Shown here: piece by piece, positions 21,154 to 62,080 of the stretch
Position numbering within the stretch: position 1 is the first letter of the stretch
How the letters are laid out: every line of letters starts with the position of its first letter
Assembly (NCBI GenBank): GCA_017526905.1
Contig: JAFXQT010000011.1
Location: forward strand, 1 to 64,000
Length of the DNA stretch: 64,000 nt
Direction: 5' to 3'
Source of the DNA: Bacteroidaceae bacterium
GTDB taxonomy: Bacteria > Bacteroidota > Bacteroidia > Bacteroidales > Bacteroidaceae
The notes under the pieces: model-generated
The model's input: only the letters and a program-made list of their open reading frames with translations
Databases searched by the model: none
What the model was told of the DNA's origin: nothing
Program-made: the position numbers and the translations under genes

Positions 21154-21234
21154 AGTGTCTATGTTGTTACGGCCCGAGGCCGAGTGGTTAGGATGTTATG
21201 ATGTAAAGAAACGCTGTGTGTGGGGGAGTCGTGT

Positions 21235-22380
21235 TCAACGGCCGCGGCGACCACCGCCGCCAGAGAAGCCACCGCCGCCACCGCCGCCAAAGCTACCGCC
21301 GCTGCTGCCGCCGGAGAACGTGCTGCCGCCACCTGAGAAGGTGCTGCCGCTGCCAAAGGTGCTGCGCGTGCTGTTGCTGCTGCCCGAATAGGTGCTGCGT
21401 GTGCTGTTATTGGTTGTGGCAGAAGAACGGTTTTGCGAGGATATGGTGCTGTTGCTGCGAGTGCTGCCGCCATTGTAGCGCGACGAACTGGAACGCACCG
21501 TGGTGCGGCTGGAGTTGTTGTCGGTGTCCTGCTGCTGATAGACACGCCCCGTGCGCGATGTGGTTGTACGGTTGTTGGCATTGCCGAAACGGTAGCCGTT
21601 GTTGCCTGCTCCGAAGCGTGTGGAACCAGAACGCATGCCACCAGTGGTACGTCCGCCGTAACGTCCGCCACCCAGGCTCACACCCGTGCGACCGGTATAA
21701 CCACCGCGACTGGACACGATGCTGCCGCTGTAGCGATGACCGCCGCCATACCAGCCGCCATAGTAGCCACCGTACCAGCCGCCGTAATAGCCACCATACC
21801 AGTACGGATCGTACCAGCCATAGTGCGGCCAGCCATAGTAAGCGCTCCAGTAGGGATGGTGCCAGCCGTAGTAGCCCCAGCCTCCGTACCAATATGGGTC
21901 GTAGCCCCAGTACCAGGAGTCGTAGTACCACGGATCGTAAAAGCCTGCATAGTGGGGCCCATAGTGGAAGCCCACACCAAAACGGTTCAGCCGGCGGGCA
22001 TAATAGTAGTCGTCGGCATCCATGAAGCCCTCATCATAGCCGTCGGCATAAGCCTGGTTCAGTATGGCTGTGGTTTGTACCGTGGTGTCCTCCAATATAT
22101 ATAAGGTATCGTTGCCCGGCAACTGGTAGGAGAACTGCCTGCTGGCAGGCCCCCGGCGGTTGTACTCGTCGACATCGCGGTCGCAGCCCTGAATGGTATC
22201 GGCCTCGGCGTCGGCATAGATAATCTGCACCCTGTGTACTGGCTGCTCCTGCACCCGCTGCTGAGTAGCCTTGCCAGCCTTCTTGGGCGAGGAAGCGAAG
22301 TACATGTCGTCGTCCTGAGCCTGAAGGGCCATCGGAAGCAGGACGAGTGCCAATGCGAAGAGTTTGGTTGTCTTTGTCAT
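21235..22380 (-). CDS. Secreted low-complexity Tyr/Trp/Gly then Ser/Thr/Arg/Gly-rich protein
   Basis: This 381-residue protein has a signal peptide (MTKTTKLFALALVLLPMALQAQ). A moderately conserved-looking region (about 25-135) is followed by an aromatic stretch at about 140-215 made of WYYDSWYWGYDPYWYGG-type motifs. A Ser/Thr/Asn/Arg/Gly region ends in FSGGGGRRGR. The composition resembles flexible, phase-separating or adhesive surface proteins; no catalytic motif is visible. Another protein with the same kind of Gly/Ser/Arg C-terminus runs off the end of the window (63862-64000). Function is unknown. It is upstream of, and possibly cotranscribed with, the FadL-like gene. Confidence 0.75.
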   Translation of the reverse strand: MTKTTKLFALALVLLPMALQAQDDDMYFASSPKKAGKATQQRVQEQPVHRVQIIYADAEADTIQGCDRDVDEYNRRGPASRQFSYQLPGNDTLYILEDTTVQTTAILNQAYADGYDEGFMDADDYYYARRLNRFGVGFHYGPHYAGFYDPWYYDSWYWGYDPYWYGGWGYYGWHHPYWSAYYGWPHYGWYDPYWYGGYYGGWYGGYYGGWYGGGHRYSGSIVSSRGGYTGRTGVSLGGGRYGGRTTGGMRSGSTRFGAGNNGYRFGNANNRTTTSRTGRVYQQQDTDNNSSRTTVRSSSSRYNGGSTRSNSTISSQNRSSATTNNSTRSTYSGSSNSTRSTFGSGSTFSGGGSTFSGGSSGGSFGGGGGGGFSGGGGRRGR

Positions 22381-36235: not shown

Positions 36236-37525
36236 TTATCCGCCGAAGTTGTCAAAGCGGATCATGTCGTCCTCCACGCCGAGGCTGTGCAAGAGGTCGA
36301 GCACGGTCTTGGCCATCATTGGAGGTCCGCAGAGGTAGTACTCACAATCCTCAGGTGCCTCGTGTGCCTTCAGATAGGTATCGCCCATCACAGGAGCCAC
36401 GAAGCCGGGGGTGTACTTGACGCCTGCTGCATCGGCCTTGGGATCGGGACGGTCCAAAGCGAGGTGGAAGTGGAAGTTGGGGTAATCCTTCTCCAGCTGG
36501 AGGAAGTCGTCGAGGAACGGAATCTCTTCCAGTGCGCGAGCACCATAGAAGTAGTGCATGGGGCGCTGACGGTCTTCGTCCTTGACGCCGTGGCCCTTGA
36601 GCATGTGCATAATCTGCGCGCGCAGCGGAGCCATACCGGCACCCCCACCTACCCAAATCATTTCGCGACCGGTGCCATACTGCGGGCGGAACTCGCCGTA
36701 AGGGCCGCTCATGGTTACCTTATCGCCAGGTTTGAGGCTGAAGATATAGGAGGATGCGATACCAGGATTGACGTCAATGAAGCCAGGGCCTTGATCCTTC
36801 GGTTTGAAGGGAGGCGTGGCAATACGGACGTTCAGTGTGATGATATCGCCCTCGTCGGGATAGTTGGCCATGGAGTAGGCACGGATAGTCTCCTCCGGAT
36901 TGGTGCACTTGAGGCCGAAGAGACCGAACTTTTCCCATGCAGGCAGATAGGTATCGCCAATGAGGCTCTTGTCGAAGTCCTTGTCGTAGTCGATGCAATC
37001 GAACTTGGGGATGCGGATCTGGGCGTACGAGCCAGGCTCGAAGTCCATGTGCTCGCCCTTGGGCAGCGCCACCTTGTACTCCTTGATGAAGGTAGCCACG
37101 TTGCGGTTGCCGATAACGGTGCATTCCCACTCCTTGACGCCCAGTACGCTCTCGGGCACCTTGATGGCAAGGTCGCCCTTCACTTTGGTCTGGCAACCCA
37201 GGCGCCAGTGGTCCTTGATTTCCTTGCGAGTGAAGTGGCCTTTTTCAGAGTCAAGAATCTCACCGCCACCCTCTACGACCTGGCATTTGCACTGGCCGCA
37301 GGAGCCCTTACCGCCACAGGCGGAAGGCAGATATACGCCCTGCTCAGAAAGGGTGGAAAGGAGGCTGGCACCCTGAGGCACGTCGTAGCTGTCCTTGCCA
37401 TTGATGGTAATCTTGACGTTACCGCTGGGCGAAAGATAGTTTTTTGCAACGAGCAGGATGATGACCAGCGCGATGATGATCACGAGGAACACCACGATGC
37501 TCGTAAGGATTAGTGATGTATTCAT
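36236..37525 (-). CDS. nqrF: Na+-translocating NADH:quinone reductase subunit F
   Basis: This 429-residue protein accepts electrons from NADH. One N-terminal membrane helix spans about residues 4-27. A plant-type 2Fe-2S domain has Cys70, Cys76, Cys79 and Cys111 (LPSACGGKGSCGQCKC and RLGCQTK). The FAD domain has IRAYSMANYP and the NADH domain MIWVGGGAGMAPLRAQIMH and YYLCGPPMM. It is the last gene of nqrABCDEF. MNTSLI at 37525 is the family start; an in-frame ATG at 37543 would add six residues. A terminator follows at 36185-36226. The gap to nqrE holds a mirrored repeat. Confidence 0.97.
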   Translation of the reverse strand: MNTSLILTSIVVFLVIIIALVIILLVAKNYLSPSGNVKITINGKDSYDVPQGASLLSTLSEQGVYLPSACGGKGSCGQCKCQVVEGGGEILDSEKGHFTRKEIKDHWRLGCQTKVKGDLAIKVPESVLGVKEWECTVIGNRNVATFIKEYKVALPKGEHMDFEPGSYAQIRIPKFDCIDYDKDFDKSLIGDTYLPAWEKFGLFGLKCTNPEETIRAYSMANYPDEGDIITLNVRIATPPFKPKDQGPGFIDVNPGIASSYIFSLKPGDKVTMSGPYGEFRPQYGTGREMIWVGGGAGMAPLRAQIMHMLKGHGVKDEDRQRPMHYFYGARALEEIPFLDDFLQLEKDYPNFHFHLALDRPDPKADAAGVKYTPGFVAPVMGDTYLKAHEAPEDCEYYLCGPPMMAKTVLDLLHSLGVEDDMIRFDNFGG

Positions 37526-37671: not shown

Positions 37672-38298
37672 TTAGAGATTGAGTCCGCTGAAGCACATGA
37701 AGGCCATGGCCATCAAGCCCACCATGATAAAGGTGATGCCGAGGCCCTGCAGGGGCTTGGGCACGTCTGTGTAGGCCATTTTCTCGCGAATGGCAGCCAG
37801 GGCAACGATGGCCAACAGCCAACCGATGCCCGAACCCAGTGCGTAGGCAATGCTGTCCCACACATTGAGAATGGCCTGCGAGTTGGTGTCGGGCATGGTG
37901 ATGCGCTGCTGCATGAAGAGCGATGCACCCATGATGGAGCAGTTCACGGCGATGAGCGGGAGGAAGATACCCAGTGCTGCATACAGCGAGGGGCTGAAGC
38001 GCTCTACTACCATTTCCACCAGCTGCACGATACCGGCAATCACGGCTATGAAGAGGATGAACGAGAGGAAACTCAGGTCAACGCCTTCGACCAGACAGTT
38101 GGGGCCAAGGACATAAACCTGCAACAGATAATCCACCGGCACGGTGATGAGCAGCACGAAGGTGACTGCGGCGCCGAGCCCGAGGGCTGTCTTCACGCTC
38201 TTGGACACGGCCAGATAGGAGCACATGCCCAGGAAGAACGCGAAAATCATATTGTCCACGAAGATGGAGCGGACGAATAGGCTTATTAGATGTTCCAT
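37672..38298 (-). CDS. nqrE: Na+-translocating NADH:quinone reductase subunit E
   Basis: This 208-residue integral membrane protein has six predicted helices. It begins [20 protein letters not shown], contains [20 protein letters not shown] and [19 protein letters not shown], and ends [15 protein letters not shown]. The conserved Cys in the FFLGMC segment corresponds to the residue that, with NqrD, holds an intramembrane iron centre in Vibrio NQR. Length matches the family (about 200). It lies in the operon with 105 bases of AT-rich repeat-bearing spacer to nqrD. Confidence 0.97.
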
Positions 38299-38403: not shown

Positions 38404-39030
38404 TTATTGTAGTTCTTTATTATATGCGCGGTGTGCCCAGATAACACAGCCCACAATGATAAGACTCATGGCGGGCATGGTCATCATGCCGTTGTTCACA
38501 TAGCCGTGGTCATAGCACCACTGCGGAACCACTTGGAATCCGAGCAGGCTGCCGCTGCCTAACAGCTCGCGCACAAAGGCCACGATAATCAGGATGATGG
38601 CGTAACCAATTCCATTGCCGATGCCGTCGAGGAACGAGGGCCAAGGCTTGTTCATCATAGCGAAGGCCTCCAAGCGGCCCATCAGGATACAGTTGGTGAT
38701 GATCAGGCCCACATACACGCTGAGCTGAACGCTCACGTCGTAGGCAAAGGCCTTCAGCACCTGGCTCACGATGGTAACCAGGGCGGCTACGACCACCAGC
38801 TGCACGATGATTCGAATGCGGTTGGGAATGGACTTACGGATCAGTGAGATAATCACGTTGGAGAAGGCGGTGATGACGGTCACGCTCAGACCCATCACGA
38901 TGGCGGGCTCAAGCTGTGAGGTCACAGCCAAGGCGGAGCAGATGCCGAGAATCTGTACAACGACAGGGTTGTCAAGATTCAGCGGGTTGGTCAGCGCCGC
39001 CATATTGTCTTTGCTAAATAATTGGCTCAT
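38404..39030 (-). CDS. nqrD: Na+-translocating NADH:quinone reductase subunit D
   Basis: This 208-residue membrane protein has six predicted helices. Characteristic segments are NPLNLDNPVVVQILGICSALAV (the Cys in GICSALA is the NqrE-like iron ligand position), TNCILMGRLEAFAM and DGIGNGIGYAIILI. NqrD is the structural twin of NqrE, with opposite topology, and together they carry sodium and electrons. The start at 39030 gives MSQLFSKDNMAALTNPLN. It follows nqrC by 42 bases that contain repeated GACGATTTA-like units. Confidence 0.97.
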   Translation of the reverse strand: MSQLFSKDNMAALTNPLNLDNPVVVQILGICSALAVTSQLEPAIVMGLSVTVITAFSNVIISLIRKSIPNRIRIIVQLVVVAALVTIVSQVLKAFAYDVSVQLSVYVGLIITNCILMGRLEAFAMMNKPWPSFLDGIGNGIGYAIILIIVAFVRELLGSGSLLGFQVVPQWCYDHGYVNNGMMTMPAMSLIIVGCVIWAHRAYNKELQ

Positions 39031-39072
39031 AACGATATTTACGATTTAATCATTGACGATTTACGATTTACC

Positions 39073-40203
39073 TTAGCGCTGTCCGCAGCAAGCCTTGTCG
39101 CCTTTGCAACCAGGCTTTCCGCATGAACCACTCTTGTCGCACTGGCCGCTCTTGCAGCAGTCGTTGCCACTCTTGCACTTGTGTGCCTGGGCATCGCCTT
39201 CCTTACAGCAGCCTTCAGCTTTGGCACAGCCTTCAGCCTTGGCACAACCTTCAGCCTTGGCACAACCTTCAGCCTTGGCACAACCTTCAGCCTTGGCACA
39301 ACCTTCAGCCTTGGCGCAGGGTTCGGTTTTCTCGCACTTGGCGCAGGGGCATTCCTCGCGCTTGCAGCACTTGGCATCGGAAGCACAGTTGCAGGCTGCA
39401 TCGCCACAACTGCCGTCCTTGCACGCGCACTGTTTCTTCTGTGCGCAGGTGCAATCGGGCTTGTCGCAGCACTTCTCTGCCTTGTGGCATGCTTCGTGCT
39501 TCTGGCAGGCGCTGCTGCCGCCAGCCTTGGCCAGCACATCAGCATAAGCCTGGAGTCCGCTCAGAACCATTTCGCCCACGCCCTTTGAGGTGAGCGTTGC
39601 ACCAGTCACACCATCCACCTCGGTTTCGGCCTTGGCGCTACCTTTCTTTACAACGTTAAGTGCAACCTTCCCATCGGTTCCGAATACAGGACGGCCCACG
39701 AACTGCTGCTGGAAGGGCACTTCCTTGATGAGGGCACCCAGACCTGCCGTCTCGGATTCATGGTCAAAATAGGCACCGGTCACCTTGCCCTGGGCATCAA
39801 CGGCCACATAGCCCCAGAGGCCACCCCAAAGACCACGGCCCTTGAGCGGGAACACGGTTACTTCTGCGCCGTTGGCATCCACAGCCTGATAGACGGGGAA
39901 CTTCTCGCCAATCTCCTTTGTCTCCACCTTGAAGGCATCGGCATCGGCCAGCTTCTGTCCGTCGGCATCGTAAACGGCCGTCTGTTTGATCAGCTCTTCA
40001 TATTTGGCCGGAATATCGCTCTTGGCCAACCCGCGCACGTTCAGCGCAGCCAGGATTTGGCTCTTCTTGTCGATTTCCACATTGGCATCCTGTGCAGGCT
40101 TCAAGGCACTGCTGACAAATGCCAGGAGGAAGGCCACGATGATCACCATGACACTTGCATAGATGATCGTATAGACATTGCTATTCGTATTGATCTTTGC
40201 CAT
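39073..40203 (-). CDS. nqrC: Na+-translocating NADH:quinone reductase subunit C with cysteine-rich C-terminal extension
   Basis: Residues 1-229 are an ordinary NqrC: one membrane helix (about 11-33), the motif GRGLWGGLWGYVAVD, and the FMN attachment site DGVTGATLTS, where Thr203 is predicted to carry phosphoester-linked FMN. NqrC normally ends near here (about 230-260 residues). This one continues for 147 residues (230-376) containing 32 cysteines; residues 1-232 contain none. The tail mixes CC, CxC and CxxxxxC spacings, Lys-rich, and includes six perfect AKAEGC repeats at 297-332. It looks metallothionein-like. The soluble part of NqrC faces the periplasm, so the tail should too. Metal binding, metal delivery or redox buffering are possible; none is shown. 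The downstream gene starts normally, so the tail is a true in-frame extension. Confidence 0.95.
   Translation of the reverse strand: MAKINTNSNVYTIIYASVMVIIVAFLLAFVSSALKPAQDANVEIDKKSQILAALNVRGLAKSDIPAKYEELIKQTAVYDADGQKLADADAFKVETKEIGEKFPVYQAVDANGAEVTVFPLKGRGLWGGLWGYVAVDAQGKVTGAYFDHESETAGLGALIKEVPFQQQFVGRPVFGTDGKVALNVVKKGSAKAETEVDGVTGATLTSKGVGEMVLSGLQAYADVLAKAGGSSACQKHEACHKAEKCCDKPDCTCAQKKQCACKDGSCGDAACNCASDAKCCKREECPCAKCEKTEPCAKAEGCAKAEGCAKAEGCAKAEGCAKAEGCAKAEGCCKEGDAQAHKCKSGNDCCKSGQCDKSGSCGKPGCKGDKACCGQR
39212..39319 (-). repeat. Six 18-bp tandem repeats encoding AKAEGC in nqrC
   Basis: Six 18-bp units of the type CCTTCAGCCTTGGCACAA lie head to tail (39212, 39230, 39248, 39266, 39284, 39302). 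Units 3 to 5 are identical and the others differ by one or two bases. Such near-identity suggests recent expansion and possible copy-number variation. Confidence 0.92.
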
Positions 40204-40212
40204 AGTGATATG

Positions 40213-41397
40213 TTATTTATTGGTTAGACGTTTCTGACGCTTTGAGATGTTTGCGCTGACGAAGCAGTAGTCGATGAGCGGTGCAAACACGTTCATAAGC
40301 AGGATGGCCAGCATCATACCCTCAGGATAGCCGGGATTGAGCACACGCACGGTCACGGCGATAAAGCCGATGAGGAAGCCATAGATCCACTTGCCGCCCT
40401 CTGTGCGGGCGCTGGTCACAGGGTCGGTGGCCATGAAGACGGCGCCGAAGCAGAAACCGCCCAGCACAAGGTGCTGATACCAGGGGATATGTGCGCCCAC
40501 GTTCTCAGGAGCCAGCGTGGCATCGAAGAGCATTGCCGTCAGGGCGCCGCCCACGAACACGCTCAGCATGGTCTTCCACGAGGCTACACCCGTCCACAGC
40601 AGCAGACAGGCACCCAGGGCGATAGCAATGACGCTGGTCTCGCCGATGGAGCCGGGGATGAGGCCGACAATCTGGTCGCAGAGGCTGGTGGTGGTGGCTG
40701 CTGCGCCTTGGGCCAGCTCGCCCAGCGGTGTGGCTGCCGAGAAGGCCTCGGGCACATCAAAGCCAAGGCCGCAGATGGCCGACTGAGCCACCCACACAGT
40801 GTCATCGCCAGTCATGCTGGAGGGGTAAGAGAAAAAGAGGAATGCGCGCGTAACAAGCGCCACGTTCAGGATGTTCATACCTGTGCCGCCAAAGATTTCC
40901 TTGGCGAAGATCACGGCGAAAGCCACGGCAATGGCCAGCATCCACAACGGGGTGTTCACAGGCACGATCATGGGGATGATGATACCTGACACGAGGAAGC
41001 CTTCCTGGATTTCCTCGTTCTTCCACTGAGCCACGGTGAACTCGATGCCGAGACCCACCACGTAGCTCACAATCAGTTTGGGCAGCACGGCCAGGAAGCC
41101 GTAGAAGAACATACCCCAGAAGGTGGCGTTCTCCAGCTGTCCGGCAGCCAATGCGTTCTGGTAGCCCACATTATACATGCCGAAGAGCAGCGCGGGCACA
41201 AGGGCTATCACCACAAGGCTCATGATGCGCTTGCTGTCGATGGCGTCGTGCACGCTGACCGAACCCACGCGACCGGTGGTGCTGGGCACAAAGGCGAACG
41301 TCTCGAAGCCATCATAAAGCGAACGAAAGGCGTGGAGCTTGCCACCCTCTTCAAAGTTCGGCTTTATCTTGTCGAAGTATTTTCTTAATGCGTTCAT
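40213..41397 (-). CDS. nqrB: Na+-translocating NADH:quinone reductase subunit B
   Basis: This 394-residue membrane protein has about ten helices. It begins MNALRKYFDKIKPNFEEGGK and contains VGLGIEFTVAQWKNEEIQEG, NILNVALVTRAFLFFSYP and MATDPVTSARTEGGKWIYG. The covalent FMN site is EAFSAATPLGELAQG, where the Thr of the AATP motif is the predicted attachment residue. NqrB also binds riboflavin and quinone and contains part of the sodium path. It is followed after nine bases by nqrC, which indicates coupling. Confidence 0.97.
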   Translation of the reverse strand: MNALRKYFDKIKPNFEEGGKLHAFRSLYDGFETFAFVPSTTGRVGSVSVHDAIDSKRIMSLVVIALVPALLFGMYNVGYQNALAAGQLENATFWGMFFYGFLAVLPKLIVSYVVGLGIEFTVAQWKNEEIQEGFLVSGIIIPMIVPVNTPLWMLAIAVAFAVIFAKEIFGGTGMNILNVALVTRAFLFFSYPSSMTGDDTVWVAQSAICGLGFDVPEAFSAATPLGELAQGAAATTTSLCDQIVGLIPGSIGETSVIAIALGACLLLWTGVASWKTMLSVFVGGALTAMLFDATLAPENVGAHIPWYQHLVLGGFCFGAVFMATDPVTSARTEGGKWIYGFLIGFIAVTVRVLNPGYPEGMMLAILLMNVFAPLIDYCFVSANISKRQKRLTNK

Positions 41398-41541: not shown

Positions 41542-42891
41542 TTACATATTCTCTTTTCTCAGGATATCAAGTCCTTCGCGCACAATACGTTGCAGCTCAA
41601 GCTTAGAGCTATCCACGAACTCAGCCAAGGCAAAATCCTCAGGAGCCACTTCGTAGATGCCGAGCGCCTCCTGCCGGTCGATATCGCCGGCAATGATGGC
41701 CTTGACGAGGTAGCCTGCATAGATGTCCATGGGGAACACGCGGTCATACTCGCCCGACATGATCATGTGGCGCTCGCCGCCCTTGATGCGTGCATCCAGC
41801 GTGTACTCGGCCTTCTTCGGACGCAGCCAGCTGAAGTAGCTGCGGCTGGTGCTGAACTCCTTGAAGCGTGGCATGATCCAGCCCAGCATCTCATACTCGT
41901 CGTCGCCTTCAGGAATCACGGTCACTTCTGTGTGGTGTGCACCCAGCCAGCCAGTCTGCTTGATCTTGATGCCCGTCAGCGGGTTACCGCTGATCCAGCG
42001 CTGATGCTTGTCGCTGGGCAGGAGGTTTCCGGCCAGGATATCACTCACCTGAGCACCTACGATAACCTTGGCATACTTGGGGGCCTTCACCTCCGAACCA
42101 GCCACGGCGATGGTGCGTGTCAGGTCCACCTTGCCGGTGCGCAGCAGGCGGCCGATGAAAATCACCTCCTCGGCACCCATGGTCCACACCACTTCGCCTT
42201 TGTTGATGGGGCTGATGTGGTTGATCTGAACGCCCACGTTGCCGGCAGGAGCGGGCCCGTCGAACACAGTTACCTCAGCATCCTTGGCCGTGAGCAGTGC
42301 CGGTGCGCTCTGCTTGACGCTGACGCCGAGATGCACCTTGGCAATTTTGGCCAGCAGTGAGAGGCCAGCCTGGAAGTCGGCTTCCTGCCCCTTGAGCACG
42401 TACTCGAAGTCCTGTGCCAGCGGCATGTCCGAGAAGGCACTGACGAAGATAGCCTTGGGCTGATCGTCGGGGTTGGCCGTAACGTCGTAGGGACGCTGGC
42501 GGAAGAATGCGAACAAGCCAGCCTCGCAGAGCAGGTCTACGGCGCTCTTGGCGTCCTTCACCCCTTTCGTGTCGAGGGTCACGGCTTCGTTCTTCCCGTC
42601 GGCGGCAACCTGCACGCTCAGTACCTTGCGGCGGTCGCCGCGCTCAACAAGCGCCACGGTGCCACTCACAGGCGAAACGAATTTCACTTCGGGATGGGCC
42701 TTGTCCACAAACAGGGCATCCCCGGCCTTGACGGCATCACCTTCCTTGACCACAACCTTGGGTTTCATGCCCGTGAAACTGTCCGGCAGAAGTGCATACT
42801 TCTCCGAAGCCTTCACGGTCACCGTCTCCAAGCTTGCCTTGCCCTTCAGGTTCACGTCGAGGCCCTTGCGTAACTTGATTACATTTGCCAT
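41542..42891 (-). CDS. nqrA: Na+-translocating NADH:quinone reductase subunit A
   Basis: This 449-residue peripheral subunit has no membrane helix. It begins MANVIKLRKGLDVNLKGKAS and contains MKPKVVVKEGDAVKAGDALF, VKFVSPVSGTVALVERGDRR (a biotinyl/lipoyl-like fold) and VIPEGDDEYEMLGWIMPRF. It ends with GLDILRKENM. It is first in the operon and lies 38 bases after a TACCTTTGC box. The frame extends upstream to 42960 but across the promoter, so 42891 is the start. NqrA binds quinone at the cytoplasmic face in other species. Confidence 0.97.
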   Translation of the reverse strand: MANVIKLRKGLDVNLKGKASLETVTVKASEKYALLPDSFTGMKPKVVVKEGDAVKAGDALFVDKAHPEVKFVSPVSGTVALVERGDRRKVLSVQVAADGKNEAVTLDTKGVKDAKSAVDLLCEAGLFAFFRQRPYDVTANPDDQPKAIFVSAFSDMPLAQDFEYVLKGQEADFQAGLSLLAKIAKVHLGVSVKQSAPALLTAKDAEVTVFDGPAPAGNVGVQINHISPINKGEVVWTMGAEEVIFIGRLLRTGKVDLTRTIAVAGSEVKAPKYAKVIVGAQVSDILAGNLLPSDKHQRWISGNPLTGIKIKQTGWLGAHHTEVTVIPEGDDEYEMLGWIMPRFKEFSTSRSYFSWLRPKKAEYTLDARIKGGERHMIMSGEYDRVFPMDIYAGYLVKAIIAGDIDRQEALGIYEVAPEDFALAEFVDSSKLELQRIVREGLDILRKENM

Positions 42892-61092: not shown

Positions 61093-61138
61093 CCCCGTTC
61101 GCATCCAATAGGAAAGTCAAATATAATTCATAACAGCC

Positions 61139-62080
61139 ATGTCACTAATCACATGTCCAGAATGCGGCAAGCAGGTGTCAAGCAAGGCACCCCACTGTCC
61201 GCACTGCGGCGTACCCATCGAGCACAACGTGAAACGGTGCCCCGTGTGCAACGCCTATGTCCTGATGAGCGCAGACGAGTGTCCGCACTGCAACGCTAAG
61301 TTCGTGAACAAGCCTGCCGCTCCTACCCCATCCACCCCAAGCACGCCGGCCAGTGCGGCCAACGTACCGCCAGCCGACCATGGTGTTGCACCTGCAGCAC
61401 CTGCGGCACCGGCAGCCACCGGCAGCCCCGCACCGGCCGGTCCGGCCGTGAAGCAGGGCCTGCTTGACGGCGGCGAAGGCAACACGCCCGAAACACCCCG
61501 AAAGGGCAAGGGCCACACCCCCTGGTACCTGCTCGTGCTGCTCATCCTCGTCATCGCCATCGGCGGCTTCTTCTACTGGGAGAACCAGAACCAGCAGCAA
61601 GCCGAGGAGCAGGCCTACCTGCTGCTCATGGACTGCCAGGACCCGCTCAACTACGAGGACTTCATAGCCCAGTTCCCCGACAGCAAGCATATCGACGAGG
61701 TGCGCACACGCCTGCGCGAACTGCAATCGGCCAAGTCCGAGTTTGATGCCGCCCTGGCAGCTGGCAGCGTGCAGCGGCTGCGCGACTTCATCAAGAACCA
61801 CCCCGACTCGCCCTTCAAGCCACAGGCCCTGAGCCGCATCGACTCGCTGGATTGGCTCGCAGCTACCACCGCCGGCTCGTCGGTTGCCTATCAGCTCTAC
61901 ATCGACCAGCACGAGAACGGCGAACACATTGACGCAGCCTTTGTGGCCCGCGACGAAGCCGCCAAACGCGAGGAGCAGGCACGTGCCGACTCTGTGGCAG
62001 CCGCACGCGCCAAAGCGGCCGCAGCCGACTCTGTGGCGGCTGCAACCGAGAGCACCGGTGTTGATGTGCTGGTTGAATAA
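61139..62080 (+). CDS. Double zinc-ribbon single-pass membrane protein
   Basis: This 313-residue protein has two zinc ribbons at the N-terminus with Cys6, Cys9, Cys20, Cys23 and Cys34, Cys37, Cys48, Cys51 (CPECG, CPHCG, CPVCN, CPHCN). A Pro/Ala/Thr-rich linker follows (about 55-105). One membrane helix lies at about 128-146 (WYLLVLLILVIAIGGFFYW), and the helical domain after it is periplasmic by the positive-inside rule. The tail is rich in Ala/Asp-Ser-Val repeats (RADSVAAARAK, AADSVAAATES). Function is unknown; zinc-ribbon membrane proteins often act as adaptors. It lies 46 bases after the C10 protease gene on the same strand. Confidence 0.8.
   Translation: MSLITCPECGKQVSSKAPHCPHCGVPIEHNVKRCPVCNAYVLMSADECPHCNAKFVNKPAAPTPSTPSTPASAANVPPADHGVAPAAPAAPAATGSPAPAGPAVKQGLLDGGEGNTPETPRKGKGHTPWYLLVLLILVIAIGGFFYWENQNQQQAEEQAYLLLMDCQDPLNYEDFIAQFPDSKHIDEVRTRLRELQSAKSEFDAALAAGSVQRLRDFIKNHPDSPFKPQALSRIDSLDWLAATTAGSSVAYQLYIDQHENGEHIDAAFVARDEAAKREEQARADSVAAARAKAAAADSVAAATESTGVDVLVE

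Follow-up and report, generated by a model that had tools for sequence, protein, structure and literature searches.

A Cys-rich, putatively metallothionein-like tail on the NqrC subunit of Na+-NQR in a Bacteroidaceae bacterium and its relatives

Metallothioneins (the animal, fungal and plant proteins and the bacterial SmtA/BmtA) are small free proteins, dense in Cys with CC and CxC motifs, rich in Lys and devoid of aromatic residues. The flavinylation motif is (S/T)GAT. In the respiratory sodium pump Na+-NQR, the FMN is carried by a Thr of the NqrC subunit (PMC10739449; this and the papers below are cited from those parts of their text that were available). NqrC is periplasmic and has a single transmembrane helix (PMC10643135, PMC12174285). 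The FMN domain of Vibrio NqrC, itself periplasmic, shifts by up to 21.6 Å between NqrD/E and NqrB (PMC10643135), and the Prevotella NQR has been modelled with the same architecture as that of Vibrio (PMC10739449). NqrC of Prevotella bryantii is 210 residues long (PMC6560451).

We analysed a stretch of 64,000 nucleotides from a Bacteroidaceae bacterium (the window), in which the nqrABCDEF operon is complete, with the five partners of nqrC in order and each over its curated cut-off (Table 1). The core of NqrC scores 168.5 bits against the curated model (TIGR01938, cut-off 144), and narrower clade models, e.g. NF003750, match it below their cut-offs. Its nearest solved relatives, by sequence and also by predicted fold, are 3lwx and Vibrio NqrC, and the first 14 Foldseek matches to the predicted fold are all NqrC structures. 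The AlphaFold2 model starts at residue 2 (its numbering is thus one below that of the protein); its first predicted helix spans residues 8–53 (7–52 in model numbering), and 184 residues, found in core blocks, have a pLDDT of at least 90. T203 is the predicted FMN-bearing Thr, since the motif TGATLT begins at residue 200. NqrD and NqrE share an intramembrane [2Fe-2S] cluster; by comparison with PMC10739449 its likely ligands are Cys31 and Cys114 of NqrD together with Cys26 and Cys120 of NqrE, the latter two at the same positions as in that paper. The genome to which the window belongs (79% complete) encodes one NqrC, two more distant FMN_bind proteins, and ApbE, which would attach the FMN.

Table 1. 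Features of the nqr operon and of the Cys-rich tail of NqrC, in window positions
Feature	Positions	Strand	Basis or remarks
nqrA	41542..42891	-	TIGR01936 over cut-off
nqrB	40213..41397	-	TIGR01937 over cut-off
nqrC (376 aa, Cys-rich tail included)	39073..40203	-	TIGR01938 over cut-off, FMN_bind; start ATG
Transmembrane segment of NqrC, N-terminal, approximate (residues 10–32)	40108..40176	-	by eye; hydrophobic stretch in the first predicted helix
FMN-binding domain of NqrC (residues 124–217)	39553..39834	-	Pfam FMN_bind (PF04205); FMN attachment predicted at T203
Cys-rich tail of NqrC (residues 230–376, 32 Cys)	39076..39516	-	no Pfam match, no PDB match, mostly low pLDDT
Tail module A (residues 244–287, 13 Cys)	39343..39474	-	24 of 32 other clade tails align to it (score of 90 or more)
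18-bp tandem repeat encoding KAEGCA units	39212..39315	-	5.8 copies, 97% match
Tail module B (residues 341–374, 8 Cys)	39082..39183	-	27 of 32 other clade tails align to it (score of 90 or more)
nqrD	38404..39030	-	TIGR01939 over cut-off
nqrE	37672..38298	-	TIGR01940 over cut-off
nqrF	36236..37525	-	TIGR01941 over cut-off

A sequence-only reading of the window had described a complete NqrC that continues in frame into a tail of 147 residues, with 32 Cys in the tail and none before residue 233. This is what we find: all Cys of the protein lie in the tail, from residue 233 to residue 373. The abundant Lys and the CC, CxC and CxxxxxC spacings that it listed are there as well, as 25 Lys, five CC, four CxC and the 18-bp tandem repeat, from which the CxxxxxC spacing largely stems. 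Having 32 Cys, 25 Lys and zero aromatic residues over a length of 147, the tail is metallothionein-like in composition. The tail starts about 27 residues past T203 and is ordered as module A, the KAEGCA repeat and module B; its third-position GC is 0.642, vs 0.651 for the core.

The tail has no match to any Pfam family (E up to 10) or to any PDB chain (E up to 1), and thus none to a known metallothionein family or structure in these databases; NCBIfam likewise gave no metallothionein family. The NCBIfam matches that did appear, to EntC-type proteins (E of 0.027), are far under cut-off, and we judged them to be composition effects. From residue 231 onward every ten-residue block of the AlphaFold2 model has a pLDDT below 60, a low confidence that, in a predicted model, is neither for nor against a metal-dependent fold.

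In our view there is almost no chance that the tail results from misassembly, a frame error or wrong binning. The genomes are drafts (only 18 out of 139 in the genus combine a completeness of at least 90% with a contamination of no more than 5%), and two of the tail carriers, L001 and L002, are metagenome-assembled. However, nqrB, nqrC and nqrD are found together on one strand in 33 out of 33 other tailed loci examined (L010–L042), and at least seven Cys follow the FMN motif in 81 of the 120 homologous protein clusters listed (of 5272 matches in all), which come from several sources. This synteny, together with the codon statistics (including a low dN/dS), rules out a chimera as well as the frame error that the sequence-only reading had named as a possible refutation. 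One of the 33 loci, L042 (genome G111), has an nqrC frame broken by either assembly error or decay, though its tail part still matches. Given the low dN/dS of the nqrC frame, we discarded an alternative frame over the tail (39039–39545, minus strand, 168 aa).

The in-frame fusion is shared by the window NqrC and 32 relatives that form one clade with it (SH-aLRT of 100). All 33 members of this tail clade have Cys-rich tails, with 7 to 45 Cys over a length of 36 to 195 aa. Where module A is found, its Cys cells are kept in 302 out of 305 cases (other cells are identical in 567 out of 725; 24 of 32 other clade tails); for module B the counts are 216 out of 216 and 623 out of 692 (27 of 32 tails). 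These Cys counts come from an alignment-based repeat of the analysis, whose cut-off (a score of 90) in turn selects for similar sequences. Module A is absent from eight of the 32 other clade tails and module B from five, so neither is essential. For module A the median pairwise dN/dS (unsaturated pairs) is 0.056 (23 sequences, 127 pairs) and for module B 0.052 (27 sequences, 271 pairs), vs 0.084 for the NqrC core (31 sequences, 428 pairs). The Cys stay in place even as their codons alternate between TGC and TGT. The modules used for dN/dS were picked by patterns that fix some Cys (five of 13 in module A, all eight in module B), so the Cys statistics of these sets are partly conditioned on the picking. 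From the dN/dS values it follows that purifying selection on modules A and B, where present, is no weaker than on the core, and this holds for the Cys above all.

These values bear on the explanation that the tail is neutral low-complexity growth by repeat slippage past the last residue needed by NqrC. The 18-bp tandem repeat and the wide range of tail lengths in the clade would fit such growth; but both modules have a dN/dS below that of the core, their Cys cells are almost all kept, and not one of the 33 clade members has lost the Cys-rich tail. We therefore consider neutral slippage highly improbable.

In the genus, which is made up of largely uncultured Bacteroidales, 126 out of 139 genomes gave a match. 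Leaving out four weak matches we obtained 122 loci, of which 120 were used (L042 and L129, broken or cut, were dropped). Tails of at least six Cys are found in 54 of these 120 NqrC proteins, and they include 21 proteins beyond the tail clade, whose tails contain 15–23% Cys. The sequences of the latter are unlike one another: there are CADCTKECKDGKK repeats, GQGQC repeats, HEGC repeats and CPNKGKC types. Such unlike sequences with dense Cys in common argue for selection on thiols as such. Length and Cys content go together, as 54 of the 58 genus tails of at least 33 aa have at least six Cys, vs none of the 62 shorter ones. On the tree of the cores (a quick search) the trait changes at least 15 times; because such counts do not separate gain from loss, part of the recurrence may be repeated loss.

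The reading had also proposed searching NqrC homologues for Cys-rich extensions, and in the 20 rows from outside the genus sample and the 43 order-wide rows that were covered, none has at least six Cys. Among 20 NqrC outside the genus sample the maximum is four tail Cys, and four of the 20 have three or four. Nineteen of these loci were picked from 267 matching genomes in a family search (L154, with a frame running far upstream, was dropped), and the other, L003, is from a Bacteroidaceae genome that may or may not belong to the genus. The 43 order-wide rows, from 154 matching genomes out of 198, are 29 best matches plus 14 rows chosen because their frames are long. One of their tails has three Cys, and the longest three, of 44, 53 and 59 aa, have none; in this set two places are double (L187/L215 and L206/L208), and L179 and L181 are of the same family. 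The Cys-rich tail is a genus-level trait that comes in several unlike versions and not one inherited domain. What the reading observed is confirmed, and its interpretation, that the pump gained a periplasmic metal-binding or thiol-buffer module, perhaps to protect or load metal centres or to respond to zinc, copper or oxygen, is partly supported: the complete NqrC core, the predicted periplasmic face and the conserved Cys agree with it, whereas metal binding, loading of centres and sensing of zinc, copper or oxygen stay hypothetical.

The tail was not found as a cassette elsewhere in its own genome (79% complete), where a tail-only search gave nqrC alone, and a search of phage records gave no match. 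Nor was it found as a free protein; the only matches in a tail-only search (proteins of about 81–257 aa) were a fragment of NqrC and a protein with a heavy-metal-associated (HMA) domain. A weak match to the tail (42% over 48%) is an unannotated Cys-rich stretch on a Halorussus limi plasmid (NZ_CP096660.1, 318110–318322), perhaps compositional. Two other Cys-bearing frames are seen in the window: an open frame at 21207–22025 (plus strand) has 25 Cys in 60 residues and is probably another gene read out of frame, and the frame at 61127–62080 (plus strand) has repeated CxxC motifs resembling those of zinc ribbons.

The C-terminus of NqrC, and the tail with it, is predicted to lie in the periplasm because the FMN domain is periplasmic by homology. 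DsbA is over cut-off in none of the 139 genus genomes (one match is below cut-off). VKOR is found in 11 of the 139 (four out of 34 tail-clade genomes, and not in the window's own genome), and a DsbD-type reductase in 120, the window's own genome among them. Judging from gene content, the genus seems ill-equipped to form periplasmic disulfides and well-equipped to reduce them, so periplasmic thiols probably stay reduced, although other oxidants may act where DsbA and VKOR are missing, and VKOR itself is present in those four tail-clade genomes. The number of Cys is odd in 23 out of 33 clade tails, which gives no indication that all Cys are paired in disulfides. The tail is very unlikely to be a metal-free periplasmic stalk, knotted by disulfides, that serves as an anchor or spacer of the pump: a high Cys content can equally mean disulfides, and the lack of a confident metal-free fold from AlphaFold2 leaves room for one, but the odd Cys numbers and the scarcity of DsbA and VKOR speak against it.

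Reduced thiols would suit another role too, that of a redox buffer near the FMN, which quenches oxygen or other oxidants, is recharged by DsbD or by the flavin, and so guards the pump of an anaerobe. The gene content makes reduced thiols plausible, the tail begins a short way beyond the predicted FMN Thr, and anoxic cell rupture guards the P. bryantii NQR against oxidative damage, going by the title of PMC7283201. A pure thiol buffer, however, would have no need of CC and CxC clusters in which almost every Cys position is conserved, and the Lys-rich, aromatic-free setting fits metal-thiolate clusters better. We consider this role unlikely.

We propose instead, giving it about an even chance from the sequence comparisons at hand, that the tail is a metallothionein-like sink for soft metals, tethered to Na+-NQR and protecting the pump. 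In favour of this are the conserved Cys and low dN/dS of both modules, the composition, the odd Cys numbers, the recurrence in the genus, the gene content, and P0122, an HMA protein with a similar end; against it count the lack of a match to any metallothionein family or solved structure, the tails in which module A or B is missing, and the fact that P0122 is a single case. The tail would hang from the mobile FMN domain of NqrC, which by homology moves between NqrB and the [2Fe-2S] cluster of NqrD/E. On the side of the membrane predicted to be periplasmic, it would fold around soft metal ions (e.g. Cu+, Ag+, Cd2+ or Zn2+). Its thiols, staying reduced as the gene content suggests, would be able to bind metal; clustered beside the pump, they would take up soft metals. 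By metallothionein stoichiometry, the capacity of the 32 Cys could be about 10 divalent ions, or a larger number of Cu+. Such a sink would shield the iron-sulfur sites of the pump itself. A protective role is suggested because NQR, which serves Prevotella and its relatives as a respiratory NADH dehydrogenase, is inhibited by micromolar Ag+: silver inhibits the Prevotella enzyme, and silver sensitivity sets NQR apart (PMC6560451). As tail-less NQRs work, the tail would not be needed for pumping and would add protection or metal buffering.

Many relatives of the window NqrC have a second Cys site, a rubredoxin-like Cys4 domain (RUBY_RBDX, PF21349) ahead of the transmembrane helix and predicted to be on the cytosolic side. 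Pfam finds it in five of the seven relatives scanned, these five having been picked for it, and carriers include L012, L047 and L063 (within L010–L130) as well as P0046, P0047, P0061, P0069 and P0071. When called by the pattern CxxC...CxxC (L106 included in the count), the domain is found in 73 out of 120 genus rows and in 23 out of 33 members of the tail clade; outside the genus it is seen in five of the 20 rows and in the order-wide rows L187, L206 and L216. It changes at least 32 times on the tree, being present or absent among close cores, and it is independent of the tail (33 out of 54 tailed vs 40 out of 66 other rows). The window NqrC does not have it.

The tail could, together with this domain, form a module for the delivery or storage of metal (iron, zinc or copper) for the centres of the pump or for periplasmic enzymes. 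Consistent with delivery or storage are the 33 tailed genus rows that also have a Cys4 N-terminus by pattern, the RUBY_RBDX matches among the preselected proteins, and a relative of the tail in the HMA protein P0122. But the two domains are predicted to be on opposite sides of the membrane and show no association, the window NqrC has only the tail, and NqrC works elsewhere without a tail; a delivery or storage role is thus quite unlikely. Returning to the tethered sink, a broader possibility, which we put forward tentatively and with some doubt, is that the respiratory sodium pump has been recruited repeatedly in one genus for metal handling, by a periplasmic sink and, in many species, a cytosolic rubredoxin-like domain, which would join energy conversion and soft-metal defence in one subunit.

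Should the sink be real, a conserved metal-binding tail on the mobile NqrC would, within the searches made, be the first case of a respiratory pump linked to a module of metallothionein type. The sequence-only reading held such a fusion to be undescribed. In agreement with that, the open-licence literature searched by term, including the flavinylation surveys PMC8238504 and PMC11334425, contains no description of a Cys-rich or rubredoxin-fused NqrC in the text available from it. Near relatives with and without tails provide a natural comparison for the metal sensitivity of NQR.

The tailed NqrC is an unusual, well-conserved variant of a known protein. It shares the core family, the predicted fold, the flavinylation motif and the place in the operon with the known NqrC of Vibrio cholerae, Parabacteroides distasonis (3lwx) and P. 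bryantii, but these end soon after the FMN domain whereas the window NqrC continues for 147 residues. The rubrerythrin-type rubredoxin-like domain (PF21349) brings a Cys4 site to the N-terminus of NqrC in relatives, and it is absent here. P0122 ends in GCxKxEGC-type repeats like those of the tail (65% identity, with 33% of the tail query covered) and has an HMA domain in place of NqrC; this is one protein only, and a single case, since 20 out of 20 HMA proteins of the genus examined are without the tail. P0122 also has an export signal, as judged by eye. Compared with metallothioneins, the tail is similar in its Cys density, its CC and CxC motifs, its richness in Lys and its lack of aromatic residues; unlike them, as they are stand-alone proteins, it is fused to a respiratory membrane subunit and predicted to be periplasmic.
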